This document shows, one piece after another, positions 5,025 through 54,617 of a DNA stretch of 64,000 nt. Position numbers and translations under genes: made by a program. The notes below the pieces were generated by a model that saw only the letters and a program-made list of their open reading frames with translations, searched no databases and had not been told where the DNA came from. The stretch's first letter is position 1, and each line of letters starts with the position of its first letter. The stretch covers positions 2,108,001 through 2,172,000 of the forward strand of contig NZ_JACCBD010000001.1 in assembly GCF_013409595.1 (NCBI RefSeq). The letters run 5' to 3'. This DNA is from Leucobacter aridicollis (GTDB lineage Bacteria > Actinomycetota > Actinomycetes > Actinomycetales > Microbacteriaceae).

Positions 5025-5026
5025 AG

Positions 5027-5647: not shown

Positions 5648-5731
5648 GTGTGGTTCCTCTCTGTCCGCGCCGGTCCGGGGTGCACCAAGCGTAACCTCGC
5701 TGAGGCGAGGACTTCGGGGCGGGCCCCAATG

Positions 5732-5740
5732 TGTGGATAA
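5732..5740 (-). other. Isolated DnaA-box-like sequence
   Basis: The minus strand reads TTATCCACA, the consensus DnaA box, once. No cluster of further boxes and no origin genes (dnaA, dnaN) are present, so a chance match or an isolated titration site is more likely than an origin. Confidence 0.25.
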
Positions 5741-5770
5741 CTCACGGGGCCCGAGTCAGCGCTCAAGCCC

Positions 5771-5843
5771 ACCCAATGCGATCTGCAGAACCAATCCCCT
5801 TCCAGCGGGGAGGCGGCCTACGGACTGCAGATCACATTGCTAC
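5771..5843. repeat. Inverted pair of a dispersed intergenic repeat (core CTGCAGATC)
   Basis: CAATGCGATCTGCAG at 5774-5788 faces CTGCAGATCACATTG at 5825-5839, an inverted repeat of 15 bases with one mismatch. The loop holds a smaller CCCC/GGGG hairpin. Read on the minus strand, 5771-5795 matches the repeat at about 17566-17590 in 23 of 25 positions. Related copies lie in the gaps at 17.4-17.8 kb and 60.9 kb. The gap 5648-5954 contains nothing that looks like a gene: it holds this pair, the tandem repeat next to it and an isolated DnaA-like box. Confidence 0.7.
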
Positions 5844-5847
5844 GGGC

Positions 5848-5953
5848 GGTGGCAGGTGGGTGGAGCCTGGTGCCTGGTGGCAGATGGGTGGTGTCTGGCG
5901 GCTGGTGGCAGGTGGGCGGTGGCTGGGGCCTGGCGGCTGGTGCCTGGCGGCCC
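5848..5953 (+). repeat. G-rich 28-bp tandem repeat downstream of ligA
   Basis: Units begin at 5848, 5876 and 5904, each opening with GGTGGCAGRTGGG. The first two are 28 bases; the third has a 7-base insertion, and a partial unit starts at 5939. The array abuts the ligA stop codon. Runs of GGG and GG on one strand could form G-quadruplex structures. No spacers are present, so this is not a CRISPR array. Confidence 0.7.
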
Positions 5954-5954
5954 A

Positions 5955-8315
<2,361 letters not shown>

Positions 8316-8384
8316 CTACGATTCACCGGCGACATTCACCGGTGCAATCGCGCTGGCGCGCCCCGGAGCTCCCGCCGCCGCGGA

Positions 8385-9548: not shown

Positions 9549-9612
9549 CAGAGCAGCTTAATCGTTTCTCGCCCGGCTCGCAGGTCGGCTGGAGGAACCC
9601 TTCAGCGCAAGC

Positions 9613-10803: not shown

Positions 10804-10811
10804 CGCACGGC

Positions 10812-11780: not shown

Positions 11781-11783
11781 GAG

Positions 11784-37573: not shown

Positions 37574-37745
37574 GTGGCCTCCACTCAAAGACGAAAGGGA
37601 AAATCTTTCCGCATTCAAACACGCAACACGAGCAAATTAAAGCAACAAACGATAACGATGTGGGCGCCTTTGCGTTCCCGCACGGCCACACCAAGTTGCG
37701 CGAATCACCGCCAAATACACCGCGCTTCAGGCTCACTCAGCCAAG

Positions 37746-39477: not shown

Positions 39478-40263
39478 CTACTTACCTAGCATCTCCAGAT
39501 CTGCCTCAATCTCGCGCGCGGTCTCGAGTAGCTTGGGCAGATGGCTTTCGATGAGCATCTCCACAGGTCCTGCGCTCGCACTTGTAGAGACGTTAACTGC
39601 TACGACTACGCGGCCATCGCGTCCCCGCACACCGGTCGCGATAGAACGCAGACCGATCTCAAGTTCCCCGTCGACAAGCGCCCAGCCCTGATCTCGCACG
39701 CGCTCGAGCTCGGCGTTCAGTTCGGCCGGGGACGTCAGCGTACGTTCCGTGAGACGTGCAAGGTCGGCGCCTGCTAGAAGCCGGTCACGTTCCCGGGAAG
39801 GCAAGTCACTGACCAGCACACGACCCATGCTCGTCGCGTGCGCTGGGAACCGGGTACCGATCGTGATGCCGACAGTCATAATGCGCCGTGTTGGCACGCG
39901 CGCAACGTAGACGATGTCTGCGTCAGAGAGCACTGCGGCCGACACTGATTCTTCGAGTGCGTGCGACAGTTTCTCAAGGTGCGGCTGCATCATTTCGGGC
40001 AGCGAGAGCGCAGACAGGTAGCTGAAGCCGAGTTCGAGCACGCGTGGAGTGAGCGCAAACAACCGCCCATCTGTGCGGACGTAGCCGAGGGTCTGCAGTG
40101 TTCTCAGGAAACGCCGAGACGCAGCCGCGGGGATGCCGACTCGCTTCGATACCTCGGTGAGCGTCAGCTCGGGGTTCTCGGCATCGAACGCTCGAATGAC
40201 GGCCAGGCCACGTGCAAAGGACTGGACGTAGTCGCTGCCCTCGGCCGAGTCTTCGTTACTCAT
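39478..40263 (-). CDS. IclR-family regulator (PcaR/PobR-like)
   Basis: The 261-residue product has an N-terminal winged helix (SFARGLAVIRAFDAENPELTLTEVSKRVGIPAAASRRFLRTL) and the IclR effector domain. The Q-SFARGLAVI opening and the overall pattern are those of the PcaR/PobR branch that controls the beta-ketoadipate pathway. It lies 31 bases after the thiolase gene and so closes the catabolic operon. Start ATG at 40263; the longer frame upstream overlaps the thiolase and is rejected. Confidence 0.9.
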   Translation of the reverse strand: MSNEDSAEGSDYVQSFARGLAVIRAFDAENPELTLTEVSKRVGIPAAASRRFLRTLQTLGYVRTDGRLFALTPRVLELGFSYLSALSLPEMMQPHLEKLSHALEESVSAAVLSDADIVYVARVPTRRIMTVGITIGTRFPAHATSMGRVLVSDLPSRERDRLLAGADLARLTERTLTSPAELNAELERVRDQGWALVDGELEIGLRSIATGVRGRDGRVVVAVNVSTSASAGPVEMLIESHLPKLLETAREIEADLEMLGK

Positions 40264-40294
40264 ACCCCCATTCTGCCGGTCTGTCGTGAAGATT

Positions 40295-41464
40295 TCAGCG
40301 TTCAAGCACAACTGCGAGCCCCTGGCCAACTCCGATGCAGATCGCGACGACGGCGACGCCGCTGCCACGGCGAGCAAGTTCGTGTGCCGCACGCGCGACG
40401 ATACGGCCGCCCGACGCGCCAAGTGGGTGTCCGATTGCGAGCGCACCGCCGTGTACGTTGAGGCGTGCCGGATCGAGGTCTGGCCAGCCCGCGAGACACG
40501 CGAGCGCCTGGGAAGCAAAGGCCTCGTTGAGTTCAACAAAGTCGACATCTGCCCACGACCTGCCCGCGCGAGCGAGCGCCCGGTTCGCCGCTTCGATGGG
40601 GGCGGTCGGAAAGTCCTGTGGGTCGACGCCGTGCACCGCCCGCGCGGTAATCCGTGCGAGCGGTTCGGCGTCGACCGCGCCCTCGCGCCCGAGCAGCAAG
40701 GCGGAGGCACCGTCGTTGATCGATGACGAATTCCCAGCGGTCACGCTGCCGTCGGATGCGAACAACGGGCGGAGCATCGCGAGCTTCTCGGCTGAAGTGT
40801 CGTCACGGATCCCCTCATCACGAATGAGCTCGTATCCGGGTACCTGGACAATCTCGCGATCGAACGCGCCGCCTGCCCACCCGGCCGCGGCGAGGGCGTG
40901 CGACCGAGCTGCGAACGCATCTTGCGCTTCCCTGCTGATGCCCCACTCCCGCGCTGTCCGCTCAGCGGCTTCACCATTTGAGATCGTCCACTCGTCCGGG
41001 AACCTCGGGTTCACCATCCGCCAACCGATGCTCGTATTCCAGGCTGTCTGGTTACCAACGGCGGGCCAGGGCTTCGCTGATTTCTCAATCACGAATGGCG
41101 CGCGACTCATCGACTCAACCCCGCCAGTGAGCACGAGCTCAGCGTCGCCGCATTCAATTGCGCGTGACCCTTGAATCACGGCCTCAAGCGAGGACGCGCA
41201 GAGCCTGTTCACAGTGACGCCTGTGACAGTCGTCGGAAATCCCGCGAGCAGCGCGCCGAAGCGCGCGACGTTGCGGTTGTCTTCCCCCGCCTGATTCGCG
41301 TCGCCGAAGACGACGTCGGCGACCCGGGCGGGGTCGACGCCAGCTCTGTCAACGATCGCACGCATCACGACCGCAGCGAGGTCATCGGGTCGGACCCCAG
41401 AGAGCCCGCCACCTGCGCGGCCAAACGGGGTGCGTACGGCGTCAAAGATGTGAGTTGTTTCCAT
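40295..41464 (-). CDS. pcaF-like: Thiolase, 3-oxoadipyl-CoA thiolase (PcaF)-like
   Basis: The 389-residue product starts METTHIFDAVRTPFGR (ATG at 41464 with AGGAA upstream; ATG 41482 is possible). The nucleophile Cys is in NRLCASSLEAV, the His in GGALAIGHPLGASGGRI and the second Cys in ICIGVGQGLAV. GDANQAGEDNRNVARF is characteristic of PcaF/PaaJ enzymes that cleave 3-oxoadipyl-CoA to succinyl-CoA and acetyl-CoA. It follows the CoA transferase genes by 73 bases. Confidence 0.9.
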   Translation of the reverse strand: METTHIFDAVRTPFGRAGGGLSGVRPDDLAAVVMRAIVDRAGVDPARVADVVFGDANQAGEDNRNVARFGALLAGFPTTVTGVTVNRLCASSLEAVIQGSRAIECGDAELVLTGGVESMSRAPFVIEKSAKPWPAVGNQTAWNTSIGWRMVNPRFPDEWTISNGEAAERTAREWGISREAQDAFAARSHALAAAGWAGGAFDREIVQVPGYELIRDEGIRDDTSAEKLAMLRPLFASDGSVTAGNSSSINDGASALLLGREGAVDAEPLARITARAVHGVDPQDFPTAPIEAANRALARAGRSWADVDFVELNEAFASQALACLAGWPDLDPARLNVHGGALAIGHPLGASGGRIVARAAHELARRGSGVAVVAICIGVGQGLAVVLER

Positions 41465-41537
41465 CTGCTGCGTTCCTGTCATTGGTGGGAGCGCGAGCCG
41501 AGCATCGGCACCACTCGCGGTATTCGTTGAGCTGCGG

Positions 41538-42179
41538 CTAAACCGTCACGAGGTCCAGTCCGGTGAGTTCTGCGAGCCCCGTGACGGTGTTGTCCCCGAA
41601 CAGCTCGCGCACCGCGAATCCCGCCACTGTGACGTCGAACACGGCGTGGTCGGTGTACACCCGGGTCACGCACCCGACCCCGGTCAGTGGGTAGTCGCAG
41701 TTCTGCACAAGTTTCGGGGTGCCCTGCTTCGTCAACAGGTCGGTCATGACGTAGACAGATTTCGCGCCAATCGCGAGGTCCATCGCGCCACCGATCGCGG
41801 GGATCGCGTCGGGCGCGCCCGTCGACCAGTTCGCAAGGTCACCGTTCTCGGCAACCTGGAACGCGCCAAGCACGCACACGTCGAGGTGACCGCCGCGCAT
41901 CATCGCGAAGGAGTCAGCGTGATGGAAATACGAGGCGCCTGGCACCGCCGTAACGGGCTGCTTCCCCGCGTTGATGAGGTCAGGGTCGATGCGTGCTGGC
42001 TCCGGCGCTCCGCCCATCCCGAGCATTCCGTTCTCGGTGTGCAGGATAATCTCGCGGTCCCTCGGCAGGTAGTTCGCGACGAGCGTTGGCGCGCCGATCC
42101 CGAGGTTCACGTATGCGCCGTCGGGGATGTCAAGGGCAATCTTTGCGGCAAGGTCTTGCCGGCTAATTCGCGAGTACAT
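41538..42179 (-). CDS. pcaJ-like: 3-oxoacid (3-oxoadipate) CoA-transferase subunit B
   Basis: The 213-residue product contains the catalytic glutamate in LHTENGMLGMGG, the site of the glutamyl-CoA thioester. Start ATG at 42179 lies 17 bases inside the end of the subunit A gene. Together the subunits move CoA from succinyl-CoA to a 3-oxo acid. The longer frame upstream is not family-like. Confidence 0.92.
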   Translation of the reverse strand: MYSRISRQDLAAKIALDIPDGAYVNLGIGAPTLVANYLPRDREIILHTENGMLGMGGAPEPARIDPDLINAGKQPVTAVPGASYFHHADSFAMMRGGHLDVCVLGAFQVAENGDLANWSTGAPDAIPAIGGAMDLAIGAKSVYVMTDLLTKQGTPKLVQNCDYPLTGVGCVTRVYTDHAVFDVTVAGFAVRELFGDNTVTGLAELTGLDLVTV

Positions 42180-42936
42180 CTGCGGGCTCCTTCGTGTCGT
42201 GTCCGGGCGAGGGAAGCGGGACCCCGTCGATGTCGACGCCACCGGCGAACTCGCCGTCGCGCAGCCACTCGCGTTCGCCGAGCGCGACGACCCGGTCAAC
42301 GAAGATTCCCGGCGTCACAACCGCTTCCGGGTCGAGCGCGCCCAAGGGCACAATCTCATCGACCTGAGCGATCGACACGGTTGCAGCAGCAGCCATGATC
42401 GGGCCGAAGTTTCGTGCGGTCTCACGGTAGACAACGTTGCCCCAGCGGTCAGCTGACAAGCCACTGATGAGCGCGAAATCAGCACGGATTGGGTATTCAA
42501 GCAAGTATGTTCGGCCTCCGATCTCACGGGTTTCCCGGCCCTCGGCGAGCTCGGTGCCAACCGCTGTTGGCGAGTAGAACGCTCCCACCCCCGCGCCGGC
42601 CGCACGGATACGCTCAGCGAGATTGCCCTGCGGCACGAGTTCGAGCTCAAGCTCACCTGACCGGTAGAGCCTGTCAAAGACCCACGAGTCGTGCTGCCGC
42701 GGGAACGAGCAGATGATCTTCCGTACCCGCCCTGTTGCAAGAAGCGCGGCGAGCCCAACGTCGCCGTTCCCCGCGTTGTTGTTCACAACGGTAAGGTCTT
42801 TCGCCCCCTGATCAATGAGGGCGTCGATGAGTTCTACGGGCTGCCCAGCTCGGCCGAAGCCGCCAATCATCACCGTTGCACCGTCAAAGATGCCAGCGAC
42901 CGCGTCGGCAAGCGTAGGTACTGTTTTGTTAATCAT
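42163..42936 (-). CDS. pcaI-like: 3-oxoacid (3-oxoadipate) CoA-transferase subunit A
   Basis: The 257-residue subunit has the glycine-rich VMIGGFGRAGQPVELIDALI opening, NNAGNGDVGLAALL, SFPRQHDSWVFDRLYRSG and ADRWGNVVYRETARNFGPIMA, which are those of PcaI rather than of acetoacetate-type AtoD. Its ATG overlaps the stop of the M81-GNAT gene by four bases, placing it firmly in the long operon. Confidence 0.92.
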   Translation of the reverse strand: MINKTVPTLADAVAGIFDGATVMIGGFGRAGQPVELIDALIDQGAKDLTVVNNNAGNGDVGLAALLATGRVRKIICSFPRQHDSWVFDRLYRSGELELELVPQGNLAERIRAAGAGVGAFYSPTAVGTELAEGRETREIGGRTYLLEYPIRADFALISGLSADRWGNVVYRETARNFGPIMAAAATVSIAQVDEIVPLGALDPEAVVTPGIFVDRVVALGEREWLRDGEFAGGVDIDGVPLPSPGHDTKEPADVLAN

Positions 42937-45029
42937 CGCGCACCCCTCACCACTCGAATGTCATCAACTCGGCTCTCTTCGTCGGGGCGGCGGTCGTCAG
43001 TCGGTTCGAAGCCGACCTTCCTGTAAAACTCAAACGCTCGTGCGTTCCCGTCGACGACCCAGGCAAACGCGGGCTCGTCACCGAGCAGCCGGTCGATGAG
43101 TACAGTAGCGAGCCCGGTGCCGCGTGCCTCCGGTGTGAGGTTGAGCGTGTGCAGCTCGAGGCCGAGCGGCCCCGCGTCGTCGTGCCGGTGTGCCGACCCG
43201 AACCCGAGGAACACGCCGGAGGCGGAGTGCGCGACCAGAACTTGGTAGCCGGGCGCCCGTTCAAGCGCGCCTTCCCACTCCGGGAGCCGCCGTTCGGCGG
43301 TGAGGGCGCGGAGGAAGTCAGCGTCCATGAGCCCCGCGTACGCTTCTTGCCAGACGGCGACGTGAAACTCGGCAATGTCGGGCAGGTCTTCGTGCGTCGC
43401 AGGGCGAATCGTAAACGGCCGCACGGCTCCGGCGAGGGGCTCGTAAGCAGTGAGATCGCCGAGTTCACGGTCGCCGTCAAACGGCCAGGCAGTAGTGTCG
43501 GTGTGATGGAACCTCAGTGCGGTGAAATCTGTTTGCGCGGGTCCAGGGGCATCAACAGGAATGATGCGCCCAACGACGGGCTCGAATGCCGCACGGAAGT
43601 GGTTCTTCACTTTCCAGGCGAGCACGTCGTACGCCGTCGGATCGACGCCAAGGTAGCGGTACAGCGCCGGGTCGTTCGCGGTGATCGGGCGGCCCGTGAC
43701 AACGACGTCGACTGTGGCCGAGACTGGGTGCCCGTCGACGGTGCGCAGCCGTAGCCACGCGGCGCCGCCGGTATCGACAGAGAGCCCCGCGTTGAACGGC
43801 CCATCGTTCACGTAGACGCCATCGGTCGCCGCAAGTACCTTTGCCTTGACGGTGAGCGGCGCACCGAACTCCGTGGAAGCCTTCCCCGCGAGTTGCGTTT
43901 CGAGCACGGCCCCGACACCGGCCGAACGGGCCGCGCGAACCACGTCGTCGTCACAGATCGCCGACATCAGCACGGTGCCGAGATCTGCCGCGAACACCTC
44001 ATGGAGTAGCACCGTAGTGTCTGCGCTACCGCCCGACTGGGGGTTATCGGCGACATCGGCGAGCACGACCGGAGTCTCCCCCACAGCGATTGCCTCACGC
44101 GCGGCCGCGAGCGCCTCAGGGATGGCCGCGACGTCGACCTGGTAGCGCTCGCGCTGCGCCCAGAAGTACTCGGCCACTTCTTGGGCGACACGTTCGGCCT
44201 CGGATGGGTCAGCCGCAACGACGCTCACAGCGGCGCCCGAGCAGCGGGTGTCAGCGTAGGGAAACCCGGCGTGCGGGCTGACCGCGCGCACGCCGCCGGT
44301 CTCGCGCGCCCGTGCGAACCCCACGACGTCGGCCATGGGCCCTTCGGCTGTTCGCATGTTGATGCTGCGCAGCAGCATCGGAAGCCGCACGGTGCGCACC
44401 GTGAGCGGCTCCCCCGCGAGCGCGTCAAGCAGGGCGTTCGCGGCCCGCACGCCCTGATCGTACATGTCGATGTGCGGGTAGGTCTGGTAGCCGAAGATCA
44501 GCGCTCCGCACTCCGCCGGCGTGCCGCTGACGTTGGCGTGGAGGTCGAAGGTCACCGCGATCTGTGCGTCGGCGCCGAGGATCGCGCGGGCGAGTTCGAT
44601 GATCGCGCCCTCGGGATCTTGCTCTGTCTCAGACACCATGGAGCCATGCAACGCGAGCAGCAGGCCATCGAGCGGGTTGTCGGCGACCGCGCGCCGAAGT
44701 GCGAGCTCGAATTCTCGCAACAGCGTCGCGTAAGCCGCAGTCGTGACGGTGCCAGCGGGCATCGCTGCTGCTGCTGTGAGCGGCACCGGAGTCGCCCCGC
44801 GGGCGCCGAGCACGTCGAGGAATCCACCGAGTTCTGTCTGTGTCCCCGAGTAGACGTCGATGAGGCGGTCGCCCTCGTGATGATCCTCGGCTTCGAACGC
44901 CGCGAGGTCAGTCGCGACCGGGCTAAACGAGTGTGACTCGTGATAGAAGAAGGCGACCCCAATGCGCGGGGCACTCGCGGACTGCTGCCCGCTGCCTGAT
45001 GCTGTCATCTGTTCCATGATCTGCGTCAC
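42933..45029 (-). CDS. M81-family metallopeptidase (MlrC-like) fused to a GNAT acetyltransferase
   Basis: Residues about 20-520 are an M81 peptidase: FYHESHSFSP, LHGSMVSE, FDLHANVSG, HIDMYDQG and SPHAGFPYADTRCSGA carry the expected metal and substrate residues. M81 includes MlrC, which cleaves linearised microcystin. Residues 539-698 are a GNAT N-acetyltransferase (FTIRPATHEDLPDIAEFHV, acetyl-CoA loop EARGTGLATVLI, then ARAFEFYRKVGFEP). The reading frame is continuous, so this appears to be a genuine two-domain fusion of 698 residues. GTG 45029 is used as start; ATGs at 45017 and 45008 are alternatives. The fusion suggests linked hydrolysis and N-acetylation of an amino compound. Confidence 0.85.
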   Translation of the reverse strand: MTQIMEQMTASGSGQQSASAPRIGVAFFYHESHSFSPVATDLAAFEAEDHHEGDRLIDVYSGTQTELGGFLDVLGARGATPVPLTAAAAMPAGTVTTAAYATLLREFELALRRAVADNPLDGLLLALHGSMVSETEQDPEGAIIELARAILGADAQIAVTFDLHANVSGTPAECGALIFGYQTYPHIDMYDQGVRAANALLDALAGEPLTVRTVRLPMLLRSINMRTAEGPMADVVGFARARETGGVRAVSPHAGFPYADTRCSGAAVSVVAADPSEAERVAQEVAEYFWAQRERYQVDVAAIPEALAAAREAIAVGETPVVLADVADNPQSGGSADTTVLLHEVFAADLGTVLMSAICDDDVVRAARSAGVGAVLETQLAGKASTEFGAPLTVKAKVLAATDGVYVNDGPFNAGLSVDTGGAAWLRLRTVDGHPVSATVDVVVTGRPITANDPALYRYLGVDPTAYDVLAWKVKNHFRAAFEPVVGRIIPVDAPGPAQTDFTALRFHHTDTTAWPFDGDRELGDLTAYEPLAGAVRPFTIRPATHEDLPDIAEFHVAVWQEAYAGLMDADFLRALTAERRLPEWEGALERAPGYQVLVAHSASGVFLGFGSAHRHDDAGPLGLELHTLNLTPEARGTGLATVLIDRLLGDEPAFAWVVDGNARAFEFYRKVGFEPTDDRRPDEESRVDDIRVVRGAR

Positions 45030-45052
45030 TCTGCTGTATCAGCGAAGCGCTG

Positions 45053-46291
45053 TTACGGCAGAGGTGCCTCCTGTCGCTGGTTGAAGAGGGCCGCGATCTC
45101 GTCGTGGCCCCGCTGGATGGCGGGCTCGAAGGTGAACTCGCTGTCGGCGCGCAGTTGGCGCAGTTCGCCGAGCTCCGCTTCCCGCGTCTTGAACGGGTGA
45201 TTCCTGAGGGTTGCGAGAATCTCGCCCGCGACGATCTCTCCCTGTTTCAGTGAGACTTTCGCGCTTTCGACGCCGACAGTGTTTCCCGCCAGGAAGAGGC
45301 CAGGCAGCGCGGTCGCGCCCGTCGCCGAGTGCACAGGCACCTTCGCTCCGACGGAGTCGCTCGTGACGAATTCGAGCCCGAGAGAGGCGCTGAGGTCGTT
45401 GAGTGGCACGAGTCCGTTTGAGAGGCAGACCGAGTCCGTGCTAATGACGCGTCGGCTGCCGGGCACGGCGTCGCCGTTTGCACGCACCGTCTCGACCTCC
45501 GCACCCGTGACGCGGTCGTCACCGACGATGCGGACAAGGCGGGTGGTGAGACGCAGCGGGATCCCCCACAATGGGAGCGAGCGTGGGAGCACCCTCGCGG
45601 CGATCGCGGCGAGACCGGGGATCGCCATGAGCGCGCCACCAAGTCGCATATAGAAATACGGCGCAAGTTTGCTCAGCCCACCGAGTCGCTTCAGGGTGCT
45701 CTGCGGGTCACTATCGGGAACTGGCTGGGGCGGGAGCACAATTGAGTCGACGTCAACCCCACCAAGCTTCATTGCGCGCGCAATCGTGAGCGAGAGCGGG
45801 TCGACGCCGACGACAACGCTTCGCGCACCGGGCCGCACCCTGTGCGTGTTGGTGAGGATCTGCGCACCGCCGATGGTGAACACACCGGGCAGTGTCCACC
45901 CCGCGACTGGCATCGGCTTCTCGACCGCCCCGGTCGCGATCAGTACCGCTCGGGTCCGGATCTCGGCGGCGTCGCCGCCGCGTGACGACGTGGTGCGAAC
46001 CACCCATCCGGGTTCAATGGCCCAGGCAACGGTGTCGGTAAAGATCCGCACGCCTGCGCGCTCGGCTCGAGCGAGCAGGTCATTCGCGAGCGTCCAGCCA
46101 ATCCACCACTCGCCATCGTTCTCCTGATGGAGCTGACCGCGCAGCTTGCCTCCGGTCTGGTGGTTCTCTTCGATAAGAACGACAGTCAGACCATCTTCGG
46201 CAGCACGCGCTGCCGCGGAGAGCCCCGCGGGCCCCCCACCGACGACAACGAGGTCGACGCTGTCTCCGCTTTCGATGGTTCTCCCGTTCAC
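45053..46291 (-). CDS. FAD/NAD(P)-binding oxidoreductase, alpha subunit of an opine/HcnB-type amine dehydrogenase
   Basis: The 412-residue protein has the dinucleotide-binding VVVGGGPAGLSAAARAAEDG near residue 15, an ATG-type motif LIATGAVEKPMPVAGW and a C-terminal LFLAGNTVGVESAKVSLKQGEIV. This is the HcnB/OoxA/hydroxyproline-dehydrogenase alpha group, which works with a DAO-like subunit and small 2Fe-2S proteins to oxidise secondary or primary amines. GTG start overlaps the 2Fe-2S gene by four bases (GTGA). Confidence 0.85.
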   Translation of the reverse strand: MNGRTIESGDSVDLVVVGGGPAGLSAAARAAEDGLTVVLIEENHQTGGKLRGQLHQENDGEWWIGWTLANDLLARAERAGVRIFTDTVAWAIEPGWVVRTTSSRGGDAAEIRTRAVLIATGAVEKPMPVAGWTLPGVFTIGGAQILTNTHRVRPGARSVVVGVDPLSLTIARAMKLGGVDVDSIVLPPQPVPDSDPQSTLKRLGGLSKLAPYFYMRLGGALMAIPGLAAIAARVLPRSLPLWGIPLRLTTRLVRIVGDDRVTGAEVETVRANGDAVPGSRRVISTDSVCLSNGLVPLNDLSASLGLEFVTSDSVGAKVPVHSATGATALPGLFLAGNTVGVESAKVSLKQGEIVAGEILATLRNHPFKTREAELGELRQLRADSEFTFEPAIQRGHDEIAALFNQRQEAPLP

Positions 46292-46608
46292 GAGTCACTC
46301 CCCCGCGTCGAACGGTAGGTGTCACCGTCGCTGAGCGGCGCCTGGCACCCGCGCACTCGCTCCGCTGTCTCTTCATTAGGTCCGAGCCAGAGTCGGCACT
46401 CGTAGCAGTGCCCGATCCCGCAATAGAGCCCGCGAGGCTCACCCGCGACGGGCGACGTGCGCAGCTCGCGCACGCCCGCCGCAAGCAGGGCTGCCGCAAT
46501 TGGTTCGCCTGTGCGACCTGTGTACGACTCGCCATTAAACGTGAAGTTCGCCTCGTCCGCCGCGGGCGGCTCTGGGAGTACCGGATGGTTCTCGATCCGC
46601 TCGGTCAT
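46288..46608 (-). CDS. 2Fe-2S ferredoxin-like subunit (HcnA/SoxA type)
   Basis: The 106-residue protein carries a plant-type 2Fe-2S site: C-x4-C-x2-C in YCGIGHCYEC, and a fourth Cys in RVRGCQAPL. Such small subunits pass electrons in heteromeric amine oxidoreductases. It overlaps both neighbours by four bases. Confidence 0.88.
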   Translation of the reverse strand: MTERIENHPVLPEPPAADEANFTFNGESYTGRTGEPIAAALLAAGVRELRTSPVAGEPRGLYCGIGHCYECRLWLGPNEETAERVRGCQAPLSDGDTYRSTRGSDS

Positions 46609-46886
46609 GCTGCGCCCGCTTCCTGGGCCGCCGACTCCGCCAGGTCTCCGAGCGCGGTCGGACGTACTGGTAGGCGGACCGTCATCGAGCTGCCTCCCAC
46701 TTCGGGCGCGATACCGGCCTGTCCGAGAAGCTCCTCGATCGCGGGGCGGCAGACGCGGCCCTGGCAGAAGCCCATGCCAGCGCGGGTGTGAAACTTCACT
46801 TCCTGAGCGGTGCAGACGCCCGCCTCCACAGCGTCAGCGATGTCTTGCGCGGTGACGTCTTCGCACCGGCACACAGTGTGGTTCAT
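46605..46886 (-). CDS. BFD-like 2Fe-2S protein
   Basis: The 93-residue product has a C-x-C pair (VCRCEDV) and CQGRVC, the four ligands of a bacterioferritin-associated-ferredoxin type 2Fe-2S cluster; in many relatives this domain is fused to the FAD subunit. ATG 46886 with AAGGAG six bases upstream is chosen over TTG 46901. Stop overlaps the next start (ATGA). Confidence 0.88.
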   Translation of the reverse strand: MNHTVCRCEDVTAQDIADAVEAGVCTAQEVKFHTRAGMGFCQGRVCRPAIEELLGQAGIAPEVGGSSMTVRLPVRPTALGDLAESAAQEAGAA

Positions 46887-46897
46887 GCTGCTCTCCT

Positions 46898-48151
46898 TCA
46901 ATTCTTCGCAAAGCGCCCGGGCGCATAGTCAGTGAGGGCGTCCCGCAGGGCCGCCGGGGTCTCGGTGCCGCGTACCTCGTGTTTGAGGAGCTCGGTAAAC
47001 ATGCGACCCGCGGCAGCTGACAGGCCGAAACCGTGGCCGTTGTAGCCGGCGCTCACCCAGAGACCGGGCACTCCCGGCACCTTGCCGAGGAGCGGGTAGT
47101 GGTCGGGGGTGAGCTCAACAGTCCCAGCGAAAGCACGGATGATCGGAACGCGCGAAAGCCCAGGGAACATCTCTGTCATATACGTGCCGTAGACGTCGAG
47201 CGCCTGCCTGGTTGTGGTCGTGTGGAATCCGTTCTCTTCCCACGGCCCGCCGCCCCCGATGAGGATGTTGTCGGCGTGGGTCTGCCTGGCATACACCCGG
47301 TTTCCAGAGACGAATGGGAAATCACCCTTCACCGGCAGTCGCTCCGTCGCGGTGAGTTGTGAGCGGCGCGGCCGCACGGGCAGCTCAGCCCCAACCTGCC
47401 GCCCGAGCTCCGTCGTCCACGGGCCCGCGGCGATGAGCACGACATCCGCCTCGTATGTGGTGTCCGCGGTCGACACACCAGCGACCCTTCCCTCGCGCTC
47501 GATGAGCCGCTCGACGTGCGCGAACGTCTCGACCTTGCCGCCTCGGCTGACGACAGCCTTGCGCAGCGACGTGGTCGCGGTGAACGGGTATCCCTGGCCA
47601 TCGTGCGGGGAGAACAGCGCGCCCGCGATGCCGGGGTTGACGAGTGGCAGCTCTGCGACGGCTTCGCTCCCTTCACGCAGCTCGATCGGCACGCCAGCCC
47701 GCTCATAGATGTCGCGCGCTCGCTGCAACAGAGACAGCTCGGTGCCGTTCATCGCGACGATCGTGTGGCCCTTGCGCCGGAACTTCACATCGAGCCCGCG
47801 CTCACCGAGTTCCTCCCAGAGGTCCATCGAGACCCGGGCGAGGGCGACCTCGCCGATATCACGGCCGTTTGCGTAGATGCCGCCGGCGTTACGGCCCGAG
47901 GCGGCGCCCCCGAGGGCGCGTGACTCGAGCACTGTGACATCGGCTCCGGCCTCGCTCGCGTAGTACGCAGACATGAGGCCGACGATCCCCCCGCCAACAA
48001 TCAGGACGCTGAGCCCGTCGAGCCCCTCGAGCGGGGCACCGCGAAGGGCCTCGCTCACGGCTTGGTAATCGCGTAGCGCGCGGTCACCCTGCTCGAGGTC
48101 GGTGTTCAGGGGGTCGAGGGTGAGCAGCGTCATGCGGTTTTCTTCGGTCAT
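46898..48151 (-). CDS. FAD-dependent amine/amino-acid oxidoreductase (DAO family, beta subunit)
   Basis: The 417-residue protein has the GxGxxG-type LIVGGGIVGLMSAYYASEAGADV, GGAASGRNAGGI (flavin ring contact) and a C-terminal PDHYPLLGKVPGVPGLWVSAGYNGHGF. This DAO fold is the amine-oxidising subunit of opine, hydroxyproline, sarcosine and glycine oxidases. The ATG at 48151 shares a base with the aldehyde dehydrogenase stop and has GGAG upstream; GTG 48154 is possible. With the next three genes it forms a complete oxidoreductase; the product would be an imine hydrolysing to an aldehyde or keto acid. Confidence 0.87.
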   Translation of the reverse strand: MTEENRMTLLTLDPLNTDLEQGDRALRDYQAVSEALRGAPLEGLDGLSVLIVGGGIVGLMSAYYASEAGADVTVLESRALGGAASGRNAGGIYANGRDIGEVALARVSMDLWEELGERGLDVKFRRKGHTIVAMNGTELSLLQRARDIYERAGVPIELREGSEAVAELPLVNPGIAGALFSPHDGQGYPFTATTSLRKAVVSRGGKVETFAHVERLIEREGRVAGVSTADTTYEADVVLIAAGPWTTELGRQVGAELPVRPRRSQLTATERLPVKGDFPFVSGNRVYARQTHADNILIGGGGPWEENGFHTTTTRQALDVYGTYMTEMFPGLSRVPIIRAFAGTVELTPDHYPLLGKVPGVPGLWVSAGYNGHGFGLSAAAGRMFTELLKHEVRGTETPAALRDALTDYAPGRFAKN

Positions 48152-49614
48152 CACTGCTCCATGTTCTGCGGGTCGATGTAGACGGATACGAGCTCGGTCA
48201 TGAATTCAAAGCCGTGCTCAGAGACCTCGCGGTGCCCGTTGCCCGACATCCCGGTGCCACCGAAGGGAACGCCGAGCTCGGCCGAGCTCGTGCCGCGGTT
48301 CACATAGATGAGGCCGCTATCGATGTCATCGAGCGCGGTAAAGGTCGCACCAAGGCTGCGCGTGAACACCGACGTCGAGAGACCGTAGTCGGTGTCGTTC
48401 GCAACTGTGAAGGCTTCTGTGGCATCAGCGACCCTGATCACCGCGATCACCGGGCCGAAGACCTCCCTTCGCGCGATCGCGTGCTCGCGAGTTACGCCGT
48501 CAAGCAGCGTCGGCAGGTAGAAGAAGCCTTCTGCGGGCAGGCCGTCGGGCCGTGCGCCGCCGGCGACGACGCTCGCCCCGTCCGAGACAGCGTCCCTCAC
48601 GGCGCTCTCCACGCCCGCGAGTTGCGCGGCAGTGGCAACGGGGCCCATATCGACCGCCGCATCGGCGCCGTCGCCCACGGTGAGCGCGCGGATTCCATCG
48701 GCAACGCGCGCAATCAGCTCGTCAGCGACCTCAGCGACGACCACGATCCTGCTCGTCGCGGTGCAGCGCTGACCGCTCGTGAGGAACCCGCTGCGCACGA
48801 TTTCTCGCGCGGCGAGGTCGAGGTCAGCGTCCGCAAGCACCACGGCCGCGTTCTTCCCACCGAGTTCGAGTGAGCACGGGGTGAGCGTCGAAGCGACGCG
48901 CTGCGAAATCTGCGTGCCAACCTCAGTGGACCCAGTGAACGAGACGGCGTCAACGCGCTCGTCCCCGACCGCCTCCGACGCGAGCGCCCCGGTGCAGGCG
49001 CCGAGCAGCGCGAAGGCGTCACCGATGCCGGCCCGCTCGAAGGCCTCGGTCACGAGTACCGCCGTGCCGTTCACCTGCTGAGCGGGCTTCCAGAGCACGA
49101 CGTTACCGACGGCGAGCGCCGCGAAGATCTTGTAGCCTGCGAGCGCGATCGGGAAGTTCCATGGAGTGATGCACGCCACAACACCGATCGGTTTTCTCCG
49201 TGTGTGGATGAAGCGCGTGCCGTCGGCCGACGGGAGCACTTGCCCGAGCGAACGGCCGGCCTCGTGTGCGAACCACCTACAGGTGCTCGCGAACACTCCG
49301 ACCTCACCGCGGGACTCAGCGAGCGTTTTCCCCATCTCGAGGGTCATCTGCCGCGCGATCCGCTCACCGTCACGCTCGATCTCAGCTGCGACCTGCTCCA
49401 GCACCCGCTGGCGCTCCTTGAGCGGGAGGCGCTGCCACGGGGCCACCGCGTCACGGAGGGTGTCGAGCGCGAGCCCAAGATCCTCCCTGCCCGCTTGTTT
49501 GTACGCCGCGAGCTGCATGCCCGTCGCAGGGTTCACGGTCTCGGTCGTGCCCTCACCGGTTCCCGGATGCCAGGCGCCGCCCCTGAACTGCGTGTTCACG
49601 GTGACCCCGCTCAT
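48151..49614 (-). CDS. NAD(P)-dependent aldehyde dehydrogenase (semialdehyde type)
   Basis: The 487-residue enzyme has the catalytic Glu in [12 protein letters not shown], the Cys in [13 protein letters not shown] and [20 protein letters not shown] for NAD binding. Overall it resembles alpha-ketoglutarate-semialdehyde and succinate-semialdehyde dehydrogenases. In the operon it would oxidise the aldehyde made by the FAD amine dehydrogenase. Start ATG overlaps the ABC ATPase stop by four bases. Confidence 0.9.
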
Positions 49615-50360
49615 GCGACGTGCCTGAGGAAGGACTGCAGCTTGCTGCTCTTCGGGTGATCGAAGAGCTCGGAGGGGACGCCCTCTTCCTCGACGACGCC
49701 GTCGGCCATGAATACCACACGGTCGGCGACGTCGCGGGCAAACGACATCTCGTGCGTGACGATGAGCATCGTCATCCCCGCGCTCGCGAGGTCCTTCATG
49801 ACCTTCAACACCTCGCCACGCAGCTCGGGGTCGAGCGCGCTCGTGGGCTCATCAAAAAGCATTGCCTGCGGGTTCATCGCGAGCGCCCGCGCGATCGCGA
49901 CGCGCTGCTGCTGCCCGCCTGAGAGCTTGTGCGGGTAGACGCCCGCCTTTTCAGCGAGCCCGACCCGCTCAAGAAGCACGAGGGCCTGCTCCGTCGCGGC
50001 CGCCTTCTTGACGCCCAGCACCTGCATCGGCGCTTCGATAACGTTTTCAAGCACGGTCTTATGTGGAAACAGGTTGAACTGTTGGAACACCATGCCGACG
50101 GTGCGGCGCACCCTGAGGATGTTCTCGGTCTTCCCGTCAACGGGCTGGCCGAGTACCGAGATGACACCGGATGTGGGCTCCTCGAGGTGGTTGGTGCACC
50201 GCAGGAGTGTGCTCTTGCCCGAGCCGGATGCCCCGATGAGCGCGACGACCTCGCCCCGCCGTACCTGCAGGCTCACGCCCTTGAGCACTTCCAGGTCGCC
50301 AAAGCACTTGTGAATATCTTGCATGTCGATCATGCAGTCGGTTGTTGCTGTCGTGGTCAT
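49611..50360 (-). CDS. Polar amino-acid ABC transporter ATP-binding protein (GlnQ-type)
   Basis: The 249-residue ATPase shows Walker [10 protein letters not shown], the signature [15 protein letters not shown], Walker [15 protein letters not shown] and the switch His in [32 protein letters not shown] is typical of the polar amino-acid uptake group. It overlaps the permease gene upstream and the dehydrogenase downstream by four bases each. Confidence 0.94.
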
Positions 50361-51010
50361 CGGTCTGACACCGCCATTCGCTTCTCGAGCCGGGTGAGGA
50401 ACATTGACATCACGGTGGTGAGGACCAGGTAGATTGCAGCCACAGTGAGGTAGAACTCCATGAACGCGAAGTTCGAGGCGGCAAAGCGCTGCGCCACCAT
50501 CATGAGCTCGCTGACGGTGACGAGCGAGGCAAGTGACGAGTCCTTGATCATCGACACAGCCTGGTTGCCGAGCGCGGGCACACTAATGCGGAATGCCTGC
50601 GGGAGTACGATGCGCCAGAGCACCTTCGGTCGGGTCATACCGAGCGACGATGCCGCCTCAAGCTGTCCCTTCGGCACGGCTTGCAGACCGCCGCGCAGGA
50701 TCTCGGCGATGTACGCGCCCGCGTTGATGCCGAGGCCAAGGATCGAGGAGAGGAACGCTCCGAGCTCGATACCCAGCTGGGGCAGGCCGAAGTAGATCAG
50801 GAAGAGCTGCACAAGTACGGGTGTGCCCCGGAATACCCAGACGTACAGGTCGACAAGCCAGACAAGCGGTTTGATACCGCTGAGTTTCATTACCGCAGCC
50901 ACGAGGCCGAGGATCAAGCCAAGCGCGAGCGACAGGATCGAGATAAGGATCGTGATCCATGCTGCCTGCGCGAGAAACCCCAGATACGGGGCGACAAGCG
51001 TGAAGTCCAT
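50357..51010 (-). CDS. Amino-acid ABC transporter permease (HisM/GlnP type)
   Basis: The 217-residue membrane protein has five to six helices and the EAA motif [25 protein letters not shown] single permease gene suggests a homodimeric pore. It lies 38 bases after the binding-protein gene and overlaps the ATPase. Confidence 0.93.
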
Positions 51011-51048
51011 TCTTCGTTTGCTCTCTGTTCGTGACTAGCGTGATGGGA

Positions 51049-51834
51049 CTAGCGGATGTCCGCACCGAACCACTTGGTGCTGATCTCCTCGTACGTGCCG
51101 TCCTCCTGCATGTCTGCAAGCGCGGCATTAACTGCACCGAGAAGTTGCTCTTGGTTCTTATCGACGGCGATGCCCGCAGCCGGGTTACTGATTCGCTCGC
51201 CAACGGTGACGATGCCGTAGCCGCGAGCAGAAACGATAGCGAGCCCGACAGGGCCATCGGTGATGACGCCGTCGATGCGGCCGTTCGACAGGTCCTCCAT
51301 CGCGAGCTGGTCAGACTTGTAGGTCGTGACCTGCGCGCCGCGTTCGAGCGCCATATCCTCAAACGTCGTGCCGAGAGTGACACCGATGTTCAGCCCGGCG
51401 AGGTCGTCGGTGCTCGCGATCGTGTTGCCTTCTGGCGCGAAGATCTGCGTGCCCGTGTGGTAGTACGGGTCACTGAAGTCAACCTTCTGAGACCGCTCGT
51501 CGGTAATGGTGAGGCTCGAGATCACGATCTCGTATTTGCCAGCATTCAGACCGCCAATGATGCTGTCCCATGGCGTCGGCACGAACTCGGTCTTCGCGTC
51601 GAGCCGCTCAGCGATCGCGTTGCTGATGTCGACGTCGAACCCGACGAGTTCGTTCTTCGAATCAAACGAGTTGAACGGAGGGTAGGCTCCCTCGATGCCG
51701 ACCCTCAGTGTGCCGCTGGACTCGACGCGCTCAAGCGCGTCTTTACTGCCACCGGCGCTACAGCCCGCGAGCAGCGCCGCCACGGAGATCATGCCGATGA
51801 GTCCGAGGACCTTGGTTTTCTTGTTCAGGAACAT
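51049..51834 (-). CDS. Polar amino-acid ABC transporter substrate-binding lipoprotein
   Basis: The ATG at 51834 (AGGAG nine bases before) gives 261 residues with a lipoprotein signal (MFLNKKTKVLGLIGMISVAA, lipobox LLAGC) and the family 3 binding fold: GTLRVGIEGAYPPFNSFD, LVGFDVDISNAIAERL, PYYHTGTQIFAPEG, DLAGLNIGVTLGTTFE. It would deliver a polar, probably amino-group-bearing compound. The longer frame upstream reads through the preceding gap and is rejected. Confidence 0.93.
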   Translation of the reverse strand: MFLNKKTKVLGLIGMISVAALLAGCSAGGSKDALERVESSGTLRVGIEGAYPPFNSFDSKNELVGFDVDISNAIAERLDAKTEFVPTPWDSIIGGLNAGKYEIVISSLTITDERSQKVDFSDPYYHTGTQIFAPEGNTIASTDDLAGLNIGVTLGTTFEDMALERGAQVTTYKSDQLAMEDLSNGRIDGVITDGPVGLAIVSARGYGIVTVGERISNPAAGIAVDKNQEQLLGAVNAALADMQEDGTYEEISTKWFGADIR

Positions 51835-51958
51835 ACTTCGTTTCTCCTTTGATGCGTCGGTAAGTTCAGATGATGCGTGGTGAAAATGGCGCGCCGCATG
51901 ACGCTCACGGGGCTCGCCCCGCGCTCGAACGGCGCCTGGTGTGAGGGTGAGTCGGGTG

Positions 51959-53254
51959 TTAGTCGGTGTGGGCGCGCAGTGCTCCGTCAAGCCGGGAGAG
52001 CAGCTCTGCGATCTCCGCGGGTGTGGCGGTGAGCGGTGGAGCAACGAGGAGGTGCGGGACGACGGTCGCGTTTCCGCGGCTATCCGCACGCGTTGAGGCG
52101 CCAGGGTAGAGCACGAGTCCCCGGGCCATCGCCGCTCGATTGAGGGCATTCGCGCCGCCTCGGGCTGTAAGCGCGGGCGAGAGTTCGAGCGCGAGCAATA
52201 GCCCGGCACCTCGAACGTCAGTGATGGCACTCGGGTAGCGCGCCGCGAGGCTCTCGAGTCCTGAGCGCAGCTCTGCTCCCCGCAGGGCAACGTTCTCGAG
52301 CACGTCGCGTTCCGCATAGAACCGCAGCGCTGCAGCCGCCGCAGCGACCGCGACCGGGTGTCCGCTGTAGGTGTACCCGTGATGGAACACGCCGCCCGAG
52401 TCGCGGACTGCCTGCACGATAGGATCCGAGACGATCACACCAGACAGTGGCGCGTAACCGCCAGTGACGCCCTTCCCGAAGGTGATGAGATCGGGCACGA
52501 TGCCCGAACGCTCGACGGCGAAATTCGTGCCGCAGCGCCCGAAGCCAGTCATTACTTCGTCGGCGATCAGCACGATGCCGTGCGTGCGGCAGATCTTCGC
52601 GATCTTCCGCAGCGCCTCGTGTTCGGGCTCGAACGCACCGAGCTGACTTCCAACGAGCGGCTCAAGGATGAGCGCTGAGATGTTCTCCGCGCCCTCGCTG
52701 CGCACGAGCTTCTCAAGCGCAGCAACGGGGGCCATCGCGTCGGCGCTGTCGCGCCAGCTCGGCAGCCTGAGAGTGCGCGGCAGCATTGGGGCATAGTGCT
52801 GCCGGCGCGATGCGTCTCCCCCGACCGCGAGGGCCCCGAGCGTGTTGCCGTGGTAGTTATCCCACATGCCGACAACGAGGTGGCGACTGCTCTCGCCGCG
52901 ACTCAGGTGGTACTGCCGCGCGAGCTTGAACGCCGATTCGTTCGCTTCGGAGCCTCCGCTTGCGAAGAAAACGCGGGTGAACCCCTCGGGTGCGAGACTC
53001 TGGATACGTGCCGCGGCGTCGTGAAGCGCAGCGGTCTCGAAACGAAGCGTGTGCGCAAACCCAACCCGCAGCGCCTGCTCGCGCATAGCGTCGGCGATCT
53101 CGGTAACCCCGTGGCCGAGATTCGCGGCGACCGCTCCCGAGCTCCCGTCGAGGTACTCCGTGCCATCTTCAGCGTAGAGATAGCTTCCCTGCGCGCTGAC
53201 GATCAGCGGGTAGTCGGCGCCGAAGTCACGGTGAAAAACCGCACTGCCGCTCAT
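51959..53254 (-). CDS. Class III (omega/beta-amino acid) aminotransferase
   Basis: The 431-residue PLP enzyme has FFASGGSEANESAFKLARQYH, MWDNYHGNTLGALAVGG, LIADEVMTGFGRCG with the cofactor Asp, and the Schiff-base Lys in ITFGKGVTGGYAPLSG. Class III enzymes transfer amino groups that are not alpha, typically from omega-amino or beta-amino acids or from diamines. Start ATG 53254 is chosen over the longer frame. First gene of the catabolic operon, behind a good promoter; 124 bases separate it from the binding-protein gene. Confidence 0.92.
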   Translation of the reverse strand: MSGSAVFHRDFGADYPLIVSAQGSYLYAEDGTEYLDGSSGAVAANLGHGVTEIADAMREQALRVGFAHTLRFETAALHDAAARIQSLAPEGFTRVFFASGGSEANESAFKLARQYHLSRGESSRHLVVGMWDNYHGNTLGALAVGGDASRRQHYAPMLPRTLRLPSWRDSADAMAPVAALEKLVRSEGAENISALILEPLVGSQLGAFEPEHEALRKIAKICRTHGIVLIADEVMTGFGRCGTNFAVERSGIVPDLITFGKGVTGGYAPLSGVIVSDPIVQAVRDSGGVFHHGYTYSGHPVAVAAAAAALRFYAERDVLENVALRGAELRSGLESLAARYPSAITDVRGAGLLLALELSPALTARGGANALNRAAMARGLVLYPGASTRADSRGNATVVPHLLVAPPLTATPAEIAELLSRLDGALRAHTD

Positions 53255-53364
53255 CCGCGGGCCGCCCGGAATGGCGAGGGCGCCACGCCACACTCGTCGC
53301 TACAGATCATCATCAACAACACTCCCTCGTGTTCGTTCTGTGAAACCTTTTTCTCTCTGCGAAT

Positions 53365-53393
53365 ATCTTGCAGCGCTGAAGAGCGGTTGTCAA
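53365..53393 (-). promoter_or_regulatory. Predicted promoter of the 39-53 kb catabolic operon
   Basis: On the minus strand TTGACA (53393-53388) and CAAGAT (53370-53365) are 17 bases apart. The spacer contains the palindrome CAGCGCTG with flanking CTT/AAG, a possible operator. The transcript would begin about 100 bases before the aminotransferase start. Confidence 0.6.
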
Positions 53394-53538: not shown

Positions 53539-53862
53539 CTAGTCGTCGATCGACAGTTCCTGCGGCAGCTTCAGCTCGCGGGTCGAGAGTTCCTCAACGT
53601 TGACGTCCTTGAACGTGAGCACGCGCACCGACTTCACGAAGCGGTCGGAACGGTAGACGTCCCACACCCACACGTCACCCATGGTGAGTTCGAAGTAGAA
53701 ATCGTTGCCCGCGTCGTTCCGCTTGAGATCCACCTCGTTTGCGAGGTAGAAGCGGCGCTCGGTCTCGACTACGTATCGGAACTGACTCGCAATGTCGCGA
53801 TATTCGCGAAACAGCGCCAGCTCTGCATCGCGTTCGTATTCCTCAAGATCGTCCTCATTCAT
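53539..53862 (-). CDS. DUF5703 family protein, function unknown
   Basis: A 107-residue acidic protein (MNEDDLEEYERDAELALFRE, then SQFRYVVETERRFYLANEVDL and DVWVWDVYRSDRFVKSVRVLTFKDVNVEEL). It looks like a single small alpha/beta domain without membrane or signal segments. GGAGGGG abuts the ATG at 53862; a start at 53871 is also possible. It is divergent from imuA', with the LexA palindrome about 60 bases upstream, so it might also be damage-responsive. Widespread in actinobacteria, uncharacterised. Confidence 0.8.
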   Translation of the reverse strand: MNEDDLEEYERDAELALFREYRDIASQFRYVVETERRFYLANEVDLKRNDAGNDFYFELTMGDVWVWDVYRSDRFVKSVRVLTFKDVNVEELSTRELKLPQELSIDD

Positions 53863-53913
53863 CCCCTCCATCCTATGCCGGTTCGCCGACACGCGGGCAC
53901 CGCGAAGCCCAGC

Positions 53914-53942
53914 TTGACCTATTCGAACATATGTTCGAATAT
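53914..53942 (+). promoter_or_regulatory. SOS promoter with perfect LexA palindrome upstream of imuA'
   Basis: ATTCGAACATATGTTCGAAT at 53921-53940 is a perfect 20-bp palindrome containing the actinobacterial LexA site TCGAAC-N4-GTTCGA. It fills the spacer between TTGACC (53914-53919) and GAATAT (53937-53942), which are 17 bases apart. Transcription should start about seven bases after the -10, at the ATG 53949 itself. Confidence 0.9.
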
Positions 53943-53948
53943 GGTCGC

Positions 53949-54617
53949 ATGAGTTCCGCGGCATCGCTCCCAGATCTGCGGCAGCGCATCAGCGAGATGC
54001 AGCCGCTGCGGATCGACGAGCGCGCACTCCCCACAGCGCCCGGGCTGCGGGCGCTGCTGCCGGGCGGCGCCCTGCGCGCGGGGTCCGCGTATTCGGTGCA
54101 GGGGTCATGGCAGCTCGCGCTCTCGTTCCTCGCGGAGGCGTCCCAGGGCGGCGCGTGGTGCGGCGTGCTCGGCTGCCCCGCGTTCGGCGCCGAGGCCGCG
54201 GTCTCCCTGGGCATCGCGCTCGATCGATGTGTGCTCATCCCCGATCCGGGCCGGCACGCGCTCACCCTCGCCGGCACGCTCAGCGAGACGCTCTCGGTCG
54301 TCGTCGCGCGCTTCGACAGCCGCGTCTCCCCCGCCGACATCGAGCGCCTCGGCGCCCGGCTCCGCGAGCACGGCTCCGCGCTCGTCGTGATGGGCGATTG
54401 GGCGCGAAGCGAGTCGCGCTTGACGGTGCTCTCCTCCCGCTGGGCTGGGCTCGGCGCCGGGCACGGCGCACTCACCACGCGGGAACTGACCGTACAGTCG
54501 GAGGACCGCCGGGGCACGAAGCGCCACGCCGTCAGGTTCGAGCGGGGCTGCCTGGCCAGCGACCGGGCCCCAGCGCCGCACACGACGCATCCCGGCCGCG
54601 CGCTCAGGGCGGTCTGA
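53949..54617 (+). CDS. imuA': ImuA' (RecA-like accessory protein of the mutasome)
   Basis: The 222-residue protein (MSSAASLPDLRQRI start) has a degenerate RecA-like core: PGLRALLPGGALRAGSAYSVQGSWQLALSFLAEASQGG where a P-loop would be, and a WCGVLGCPAFGAEAA segment. ImuA' binds ImuB and RecA and is needed for DnaE2-dependent mutagenesis in mycobacteria. Its ATG appears leaderless. It ends one base before imuB. Confidence 0.85.
   Translation: MSSAASLPDLRQRISEMQPLRIDERALPTAPGLRALLPGGALRAGSAYSVQGSWQLALSFLAEASQGGAWCGVLGCPAFGAEAAVSLGIALDRCVLIPDPGRHALTLAGTLSETLSVVVARFDSRVSPADIERLGARLREHGSALVVMGDWARSESRLTVLSSRWAGLGAGHGALTTRELTVQSEDRRGTKRHAVRFERGCLASDRAPAPHTTHPGRALRAV

Follow-up and report, generated by a model that had tools for sequence, protein, structure and literature searches.

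The window analysed here is a stretch of 64,000 nucleotides from the single 3.57-Mb contig of the Leucobacter aridicollis genome, and on its minus strand it holds an operon of 14 genes (53254 to 39478) that may degrade an imported beta-amino diamino acid, probably beta-lysine or a derivative, via 3-oxoadipate to succinyl-coenzyme A (CoA) and acetyl-CoA. We put the probability of this scheme at roughly 0.45 and infer its every reaction and substrate from gene content, homology, signature residues and conserved neighbourhoods; the last three steps are the best supported part, and 3-oxoadipate, taken alone as an intermediate, is rather likely. The more particular proposal of a non-aromatic entry to the beta-ketoadipate pathway, in which beta-lysine is acetyl-protected and deprotected by fused GNAT and M81 domains and passes via 3-aminoadipate to 3-oxoadipate, is put forward tentatively and with the odds against it. 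An earlier interpretation of the same DNA (hereafter, the preliminary description), in which these genes may convert beta-lysine or a similar diamino acid to 3-oxoadipate, is partly supported and extended.

A conserved operon and its proposed route

All 14 genes are present at the coordinates below. Neighbouring genes overlap at seven of the 13 junctions (six by 4 bp, one by 17 bp), the largest gap is 124 bp, and the order and strand of the whole set are kept in two congeners (genomes G019 and G003) with protein identities of 91–100%. The 14-gene operon is genuine and no chance array, and it lies where the preliminary description had placed it (39478..53254).

51959..53254, minus: class III aminotransferase (AT3) that may act as a 3-aminoadipate (beta-amino acid) transaminase; PF00202, E 1.8e-82
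51049..51834, minus: amino-acid ATP-binding-cassette (ABC) importer, substrate-binding protein; PF00497 (SBP_bac_3)
50357..51010, minus: ABC importer permease; PF00528, TIGR01726 over cut-off
49611..50360, minus: ABC importer ATPase; PF00005, 67% to locus L005
48151..49614, minus: semialdehyde dehydrogenase of the aldehyde dehydrogenase (ALDH) family; PF00171, best model of the alpha-ketoglutaric-semialdehyde type, active-site motif unlike that of GabD
46898..48154, minus: DAO-family flavin adenine dinucleotide (FAD) subunit, putative amine/imino dehydrogenase; PF01266, best solved relative 1y56_B
46605..46886 (open reading frame opens at 46901), minus: BFD-like 2Fe-2S subunit; PF04324, SO_alpha_A3
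46288..46608, minus: Fer2_4 2Fe-2S subunit; PF13510
45053..46291, minus: pyridine-nucleotide-disulphide-type FAD subunit; PF07992 (Pyr_redox_2), best solved relatives 2gag_A and 1y56_A
42933..45029, minus: M81/MlrC metallohydrolase–GNAT fusion, proposed deacetylase and acetyltransferase; PF07364, PF07171, PF00583
42163..42936, minus: putative 3-oxoacid (3-oxoadipate) CoA-transferase subunit A (PcaI/ScoA family); TIGR02429, 360.3 (cut-off 128.5)
41538..42179, minus: putative 3-oxoacid (3-oxoadipate) CoA-transferase subunit B (PcaJ/ScoB family); TIGR02428, 280 (cut-off 243.55)
40295..41482, minus: 3-oxoadipyl-CoA-type thiolase; 18 of 23 signature residues, tree
39478..40263, minus: IclR regulator, PcaR/PcaU/PobR family; TIGR02431, 316.6 (cut-off 284.75)
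53332..53393, minus: candidate promoter, with TTGACA from 53393, and an imperfect dyad at 53363-53332, both ahead of the aminotransferase gene; three-sequence alignment

In the proposed route, beta-lysine or a derivative would be imported, the GNAT domain would acetylate its 3-amino group, the four-part FAD/2Fe-2S dehydrogenase would oxidise the end amine to an aldehyde, and the ALDH would oxidise the aldehyde to N-acetyl-3-aminoadipate. The M81 domain would then take off the acetyl group, the aminotransferase would make 3-oxoadipate, and PcaIJ-type CoA transfer followed by PcaF-type thiolysis would yield succinyl-CoA and acetyl-CoA; 3-oxoadipate would be sensed by the PcaR-family IclR protein. 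If this is true, the beta-ketoadipate pathway would serve more than aromatics, an amino-acid route would gain 3-oxoadipate, an intermediate that interests those who wish to produce adipate, and the M81 family would gain a metabolic role, that of a deacetylase, beyond microcystin.

The probable 3-oxoadipate end

We defined a thiolase signature as the 23 residues that are common to four 3-oxoadipyl-CoA thiolases and found in neither AtoB nor FadA of E. coli; the references, with an expected role on 3-oxoadipyl-CoA, are E. coli PaaJ, a plasmid pcaF, Vogesella PcaF and the P. chlorophenolicus pACHL02 thiolase, whose cluster, with a maleylacetate reductase, we read as a hydroxyquinol cluster. The window thiolase holds 18 of these residues, as does that of Cnuibacter, and the thiolases of genome G060 and locus L152 hold 21 each; in a leave-one-out control the window thiolase retains 19/25, 20/27, 20/30 and 25/50 residues, compared with 23/25, 23/27, 23/30 and 23/50 for the left-out reference. 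In the published PcaF structure (PMC7337054), the covering loop comprises residues 143–163, the acyl tail is contacted by T143–G146 and R148, and the authors point out that R65 differs in the biosynthetic enzyme; the counterparts of T143, G146, R148 and R65 (PaaJ numbering) are retained in the window thiolase. In a thiolase tree, the window, Cnuibacter, G060 and hydroxyquinol-cluster enzymes form one group (100/100), placed next to PaaJ/PcaF with a support of 93/88 that lies below the star level of the tool. The two best models for the window thiolase are both of 3-oxoadipyl-CoA thiolases, and neither cut-off is reached (421.5 and 414.5 bits against 605 and 597); given that the hydroxyquinol-cluster thiolase scores the same within 2 bits on the pcaF equivalog TIGR02430 (415.9, likewise below 597), the missed cut-off is not telling.

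The preliminary description had also named a PcaIJ-type CoA-transferase and a PcaR-like regulator, and both assignments hold at the family level: the two CoA-transferase subunits pass TIGR02429 and TIGR02428 (families that also include acetoacetate enzymes) and are 69 and 72% identical to the hydroxyquinol-cluster pair and 75 and 78% to that of Cnuibacter, and the IclR protein scores above the cut-off of the PcaR/PcaU/PobR family. It had also remarked that aromatic-ring genes are missing; in the whole genome, intradiol dioxygenase (PF00775) and PaaA/PaaC (PF05138) have no match (control searches matched in four of 14 genomes each), so that 3-oxoadipate lacks its usual aromatic origins. Support for a non-aromatic supply of 3-oxoadipate comes from the thiolase residues, the CoA-transferase identities, the PcaR-family regulator and the lack of intradiol and PaaA/PaaC genes; apart from the CoA-transferase, these points also lend independent support to the suggested 3-oxoadipate end point. 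The operon resembles the lower branch of the beta-ketoadipate pathway (PcaIJ, PcaF, PcaR) in CoA-transferase, thiolase type and regulator family; it differs in that an amino acid would be the source of 3-oxoadipate and in that the genome has no match to intradiol ring cleavage or PaaA/PaaC.

A second CoA-transferase pair of the genome (L031, G000:C1:2394380-2395668) is 46 and 50% identical to that of the window, and a TIGR00366-family transporter, which we take to be AtoE-like, lies near the operon at 36188-37618 (393.3 bits, below the cut-off of 575.75).

An M81–GNAT fusion

The preliminary description gave the M81 domain no role, and its fusion to a GNAT domain points to acetyl protection. 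By sequence the protein belongs to the fold family of microcystinase MlrC; it contains both M81 Pfam domains and keeps the four zinc ligands, which in MlrC are E39, D167, H169 and H191 (PMC9982164; one passage prints H196). Their counterparts in the window M81 domain, E31, D162, H164 and H186, are invariant in 25 aligned proteins. Unlike MlrC, the operon protein is fused to GNAT and has a glycine at the position of the general base E70 (our own count, from a pairwise alignment); E66, in the vicinity, is almost invariant.

The pathway M81 proteins form a single clade (35 rows, Shimodaira–Hasegawa-like approximate likelihood ratio 96, quick tree), with the Vogesella protein just outside on a very long branch. 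The window GNAT and that of the Bacillales belong to subfamilies that differ (24% across 71 residues, E 0.048). Different lineages have fused one or the other of them to M81, three places of the M81 tree being involved; among 120 homologues listed, 11 carry the window-type fusion and three the Bacillales type. Repeated fusion of an acetyltransferase with an amide hydrolase, beside a diamine pathway, is the pattern that protection and deprotection would produce, and it suggests that the protein may put on and take off an acetyl protecting group. The full-length fusion occurs in three of 120 relatives, own genome counted (the other two being G019 and G003), and a homologue at 69% is named Leucobacter sp. 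An NCBIfam scan of the fusion at 1e-3 listed MlrC and PRK10514 only; a beta-lysine acetyltransferase model of the AblB/YodP type, if the library contains one, was not among the matches. A second M81 gene of the genome (L065, G000:C1:3315885-3317324) is 33% identical to the window M81 and lies in another neighbourhood.

The proposed beta-lysine link in Bacillales

Genomes scanned with the M81–GNAT protein as query gave 26 loci, among them five in Bacillaceae (L005-L008, L010) in which a KamA protein stands together with a CoA-transferase, a thiolase, two class III aminotransferases, an ALDH, M81 and a short GNAT; the KamA protein of L005 exceeds the lysine 2,3-aminomutase cut-off (631 against 525.4). 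The window aminotransferase is 48% identical to the core aminotransferase of L005, and its own best NCBIfam model, PRK07483, scores 369 bits (cut-off 485). In 397 genomes of the Bacillales order, this aminotransferase is present in at least 16 (E up to 1e-140; with at most four candidates scored per genome, here and for the DAO subunit, the counts are lower bounds). Four other named genomes bring these to 20, of which G578 shows neither M81 nor ALDH nor GNAT in the stretch covered, and 19 core loci result; KamA adjoins 12 of them, lies 11–15 kb off in two (G583, G539) and is not beside the core in three (G545, G750, G781), with the contig ending at two others (G863, G588). Thiolase or CoA-transferase is missing near some cores (L149, L150, L151).

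Beta-lysine, the substrate named in the preliminary description, gains support from lysine 2,3-aminomutase genes beside homologous gene sets; the window genome has no such gene. Mere presence of KamA says little: it is found somewhere in all 20 of the genomes picked for holding the aminotransferase, and among the 21 genomes searched Vogesella is the one exception. Six aminotransferase columns common to the window, the two congeners and L152, and not to 12 Bacillales cores, were noticed post hoc and are not used as evidence.

The aerobic N6-acetyl beta-lysine route and the B. subtilis kamA-yod genes are similar to the operon in class III aminotransferase, CoA-transferase and acetyltransferase plus hydrolase. 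The operon differs by an M81 rather than a YodQ-type hydrolase, another GNAT, an extra dehydrogenase and ALDH, a PcaF-type thiolase and the lack of KamA. According to a 2019 survey (PMC6522883), it is still to be determined what KamA does physiologically in B. subtilis. For this neighbouring question, the KamA-linked Bacillales clusters would be a testable gene set, and a catabolic purpose for KamA-linked genes would follow if the scheme is true. Among the literature matches listed (titles and abstract openings), none links beta-lysine with 3-oxoadipate; 3-aminoadipate is absent from those for beta-lysine/3-aminoadipate, and beta-lysine from those for beta-lysine with oxo-, keto- or aminoadipate. 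A DUF3870 gene (PF12986, L005 2768-3097) precedes the CoA-transferase, with look-alikes by eye in L121-L123, L142 and L148.

Importer and four-part dehydrogenase

The importer is the best conserved part of the set between the window and L005 (49, 58 and 67% identity), which suggests a shared substrate; for its substrate-binding protein, the cystine and Lys/Arg/Orn models score best, below cut-off. With the four dehydrogenase genes it makes up a seven-gene unit that in G545, G750 and G781 immediately precedes the core and lacks an adjoining KamA; G511 has both, and the unit can stand alone (L124 and G900, in the latter at a locus separate from the core). The idea that genomes with the unit lack KamA was rejected on its presence in 20 of 21 genomes, though G545, G750 and G781 hold one copy each, away from the core. 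Weak, too, is the idea that the dehydrogenase simply replaces AT3b, the second Bacillales aminotransferase, since Bacillales with the dehydrogenase keep AT3b.

The DAO, Fer2_BFD, Fer2_4 and Pyr_redox_2 parts of the putative four-polypeptide dehydrogenase named in the preliminary description are all found in the one operon. As the operon has no AT3b, we favour the terminal amine of acetylated beta-lysine as what the enzyme would oxidise in the window, this being among the least supported parts of the scheme. Like heterotetrameric sarcosine oxidase and 1y56, the dehydrogenase combines a DAO subunit with parts of the Pyr_redox, Fer2_4 and BFD types; here these are four separate polypeptides, and the match to 1y56_B begins at DAO residue 47, leaving an N-terminal extension of about 45 residues. 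Other heteromeric FAD/2Fe-2S amino-acid dehydrogenases include PDH1, Hcn, Oox/Nox and Lhp.

The DAO subunit occurs in at least five of the 397 genomes of the order, each of them also one of the 16 that carry the aminotransferase, a co-occurrence that speaks for the scheme (chance 5e-8, a figure that takes no account of relatedness). A search of the phylum at 1e-30 gave a match in at least 42 of 396 genomes, none above 36% identity among the matches listed, own gene aside; at 1e-60 the own genome was the only one of 398 in the family among the matches listed, and G003 and G019 hold the operon too. In a plasmid collection, nothing exceeded 35% to the dehydrogenase among the best 25 of 1478 rows.

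Weighing the alternatives

Several observations weigh against the 3-oxoadipate scheme. KamA has no match in the window genome, where it would be needless if beta-lysine is imported, nor in that of Vogesella, which has the clearest PcaF. The three Bacillales core thiolases compared for the signature have just 2, 2 and 3 of the 23 residues, and the eight in the tree (which also took in L152 and omitted the L148 core thiolase, a match in two pieces) cluster with AtoB (94/93); the gene set tied to beta-lysine thus differs from the one tied to 3-oxoadipate. As degradative thiolases are described as broad in substrate in PMC7337054, the signature of the window thiolase is no proof. AT3b shares a locus with the dehydrogenase in four of five genomes, which ill suits both doing one step, and the acetylation site is, with the substrate of the dehydrogenase, the least supported part. 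The closest thiolase (Cnuibacter, 80%) has biotin-carboxylase genes for neighbours, along with an IclR protein just 30% alike. This context, the nearby TIGR00366-family transporter (below cut-off) and the breadth of the CoA-transferase families would fit terminal enzymes that use acetoacetate or another 3-oxoacid in an operon for a different amine; the thiolase signature and tree and the 69, 72 and 58% identities to the hydroxyquinol-cluster set make this quite improbable.

The known aerobic beta-lysine route, named as an alternative in the preliminary description and reportedly described by Bozler and co-workers in Pseudomonas, would use the genes otherwise and is somewhat unlikely for the window. 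GNAT would acetylate N6, the aminotransferase would give 3-oxo-6-acetamidohexanoate, and CoA-transferase and thiolase would yield 4-acetamidobutyrate, which M81 would deacetylate to gamma-aminobutyrate (GABA) for conversion to succinate by a genomic GABA transaminase and ALDH. This route employs every Bacillales core gene once, KamA included (as the 3-oxoadipate route also uses each once), and the covering loop of the Bacillales thiolases, long but uncharged, would suit an acetamide tail. As their thiolase points away from 3-oxoadipate, the Bacillales sets may run the GABA route; and as the window genome has a GABA transaminase (L157 GabT, TIGR00700 594.1 against 506.65), which would explain the missing AT3b, the window genes may conceivably follow this route too. 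Against it, the covering loop of the window thiolase is charged as in PcaF, the regulator belongs to the PcaR family, no beta-lysine acetyltransferase model was among the listed matches of the GNAT, and the dehydrogenase would have no clear task. The ALDH has SGQRC where GabD has FRNAGQTC (consensus FRNxGQTC, also missing from the Bacillales ALDHs), and alpha-ketoglutaric-semialdehyde dehydrogenase scores higher (408.9 bits, cut-off 770) than succinate-semialdehyde dehydrogenase (338.4 and 327.5, cut-offs 521 and 646), none of the 25 models shown reaching its own cut-off; thiolase, regulator and ALDH together point to 3-oxoadipate in the window. In another, unlikely reading, what the importer and dehydrogenase act on would be a relative that is opine-like (N-alkylated) or cyclic, for instance pyrrolidine-2-acetate, from which the dehydrogenase would release beta-lysine or 3-amino-6-oxohexanoate, with later steps as in either scheme. 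The seven-gene unit alone or at cores without adjoining KamA would suit this, as would the best solved relatives, which include sarcosine oxidase subunits and 1y56, enzymes of secondary amines; KamA elsewhere in G545, G750 and G781 speaks against it.

Related contexts and neighbouring genes

Vogesella oryzae (L016) combines M81 with a PcaF (650.8 against 597), a PcaR-family regulator (331.4 against 284.75), aminotransferases and an ALDH, and its M81 in the company of PcaF and the regulator counts in favour of the scheme; its two-gene CoA-transferase has no NCBIfam match at 1e-30 and by eye is presumably glutaconate/CatIJ-like. An AstE/AspA-like deacylase (PF24827, L016 12898-14019) lies beside PcaF, PcaR and M81. 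In L152 (G578), the aminotransferase family (52% to L005), a CoA-transferase and the 21-residue-signature thiolase stand with hydantoinase A/B genes in one run (4475-12364), possibly a lactam (homopyroglutamate) route to 3-oxoadipate. No ring genes were recognised in the Vogesella and L152 stretches, and no ring-cleavage search was made in either genome. On a Cnuibacter plasmid, biotin carboxylase genes, BioY, CoA-transferase and thiolase are clustered together (L072 6477-13161).

The candidate promoter and dyad upstream of the aminotransferase gene are conserved in G019 and G003, and a DUF2469 gene (53539-53964) adjoins the 5' end of the operon in the window and likewise in both congeners.

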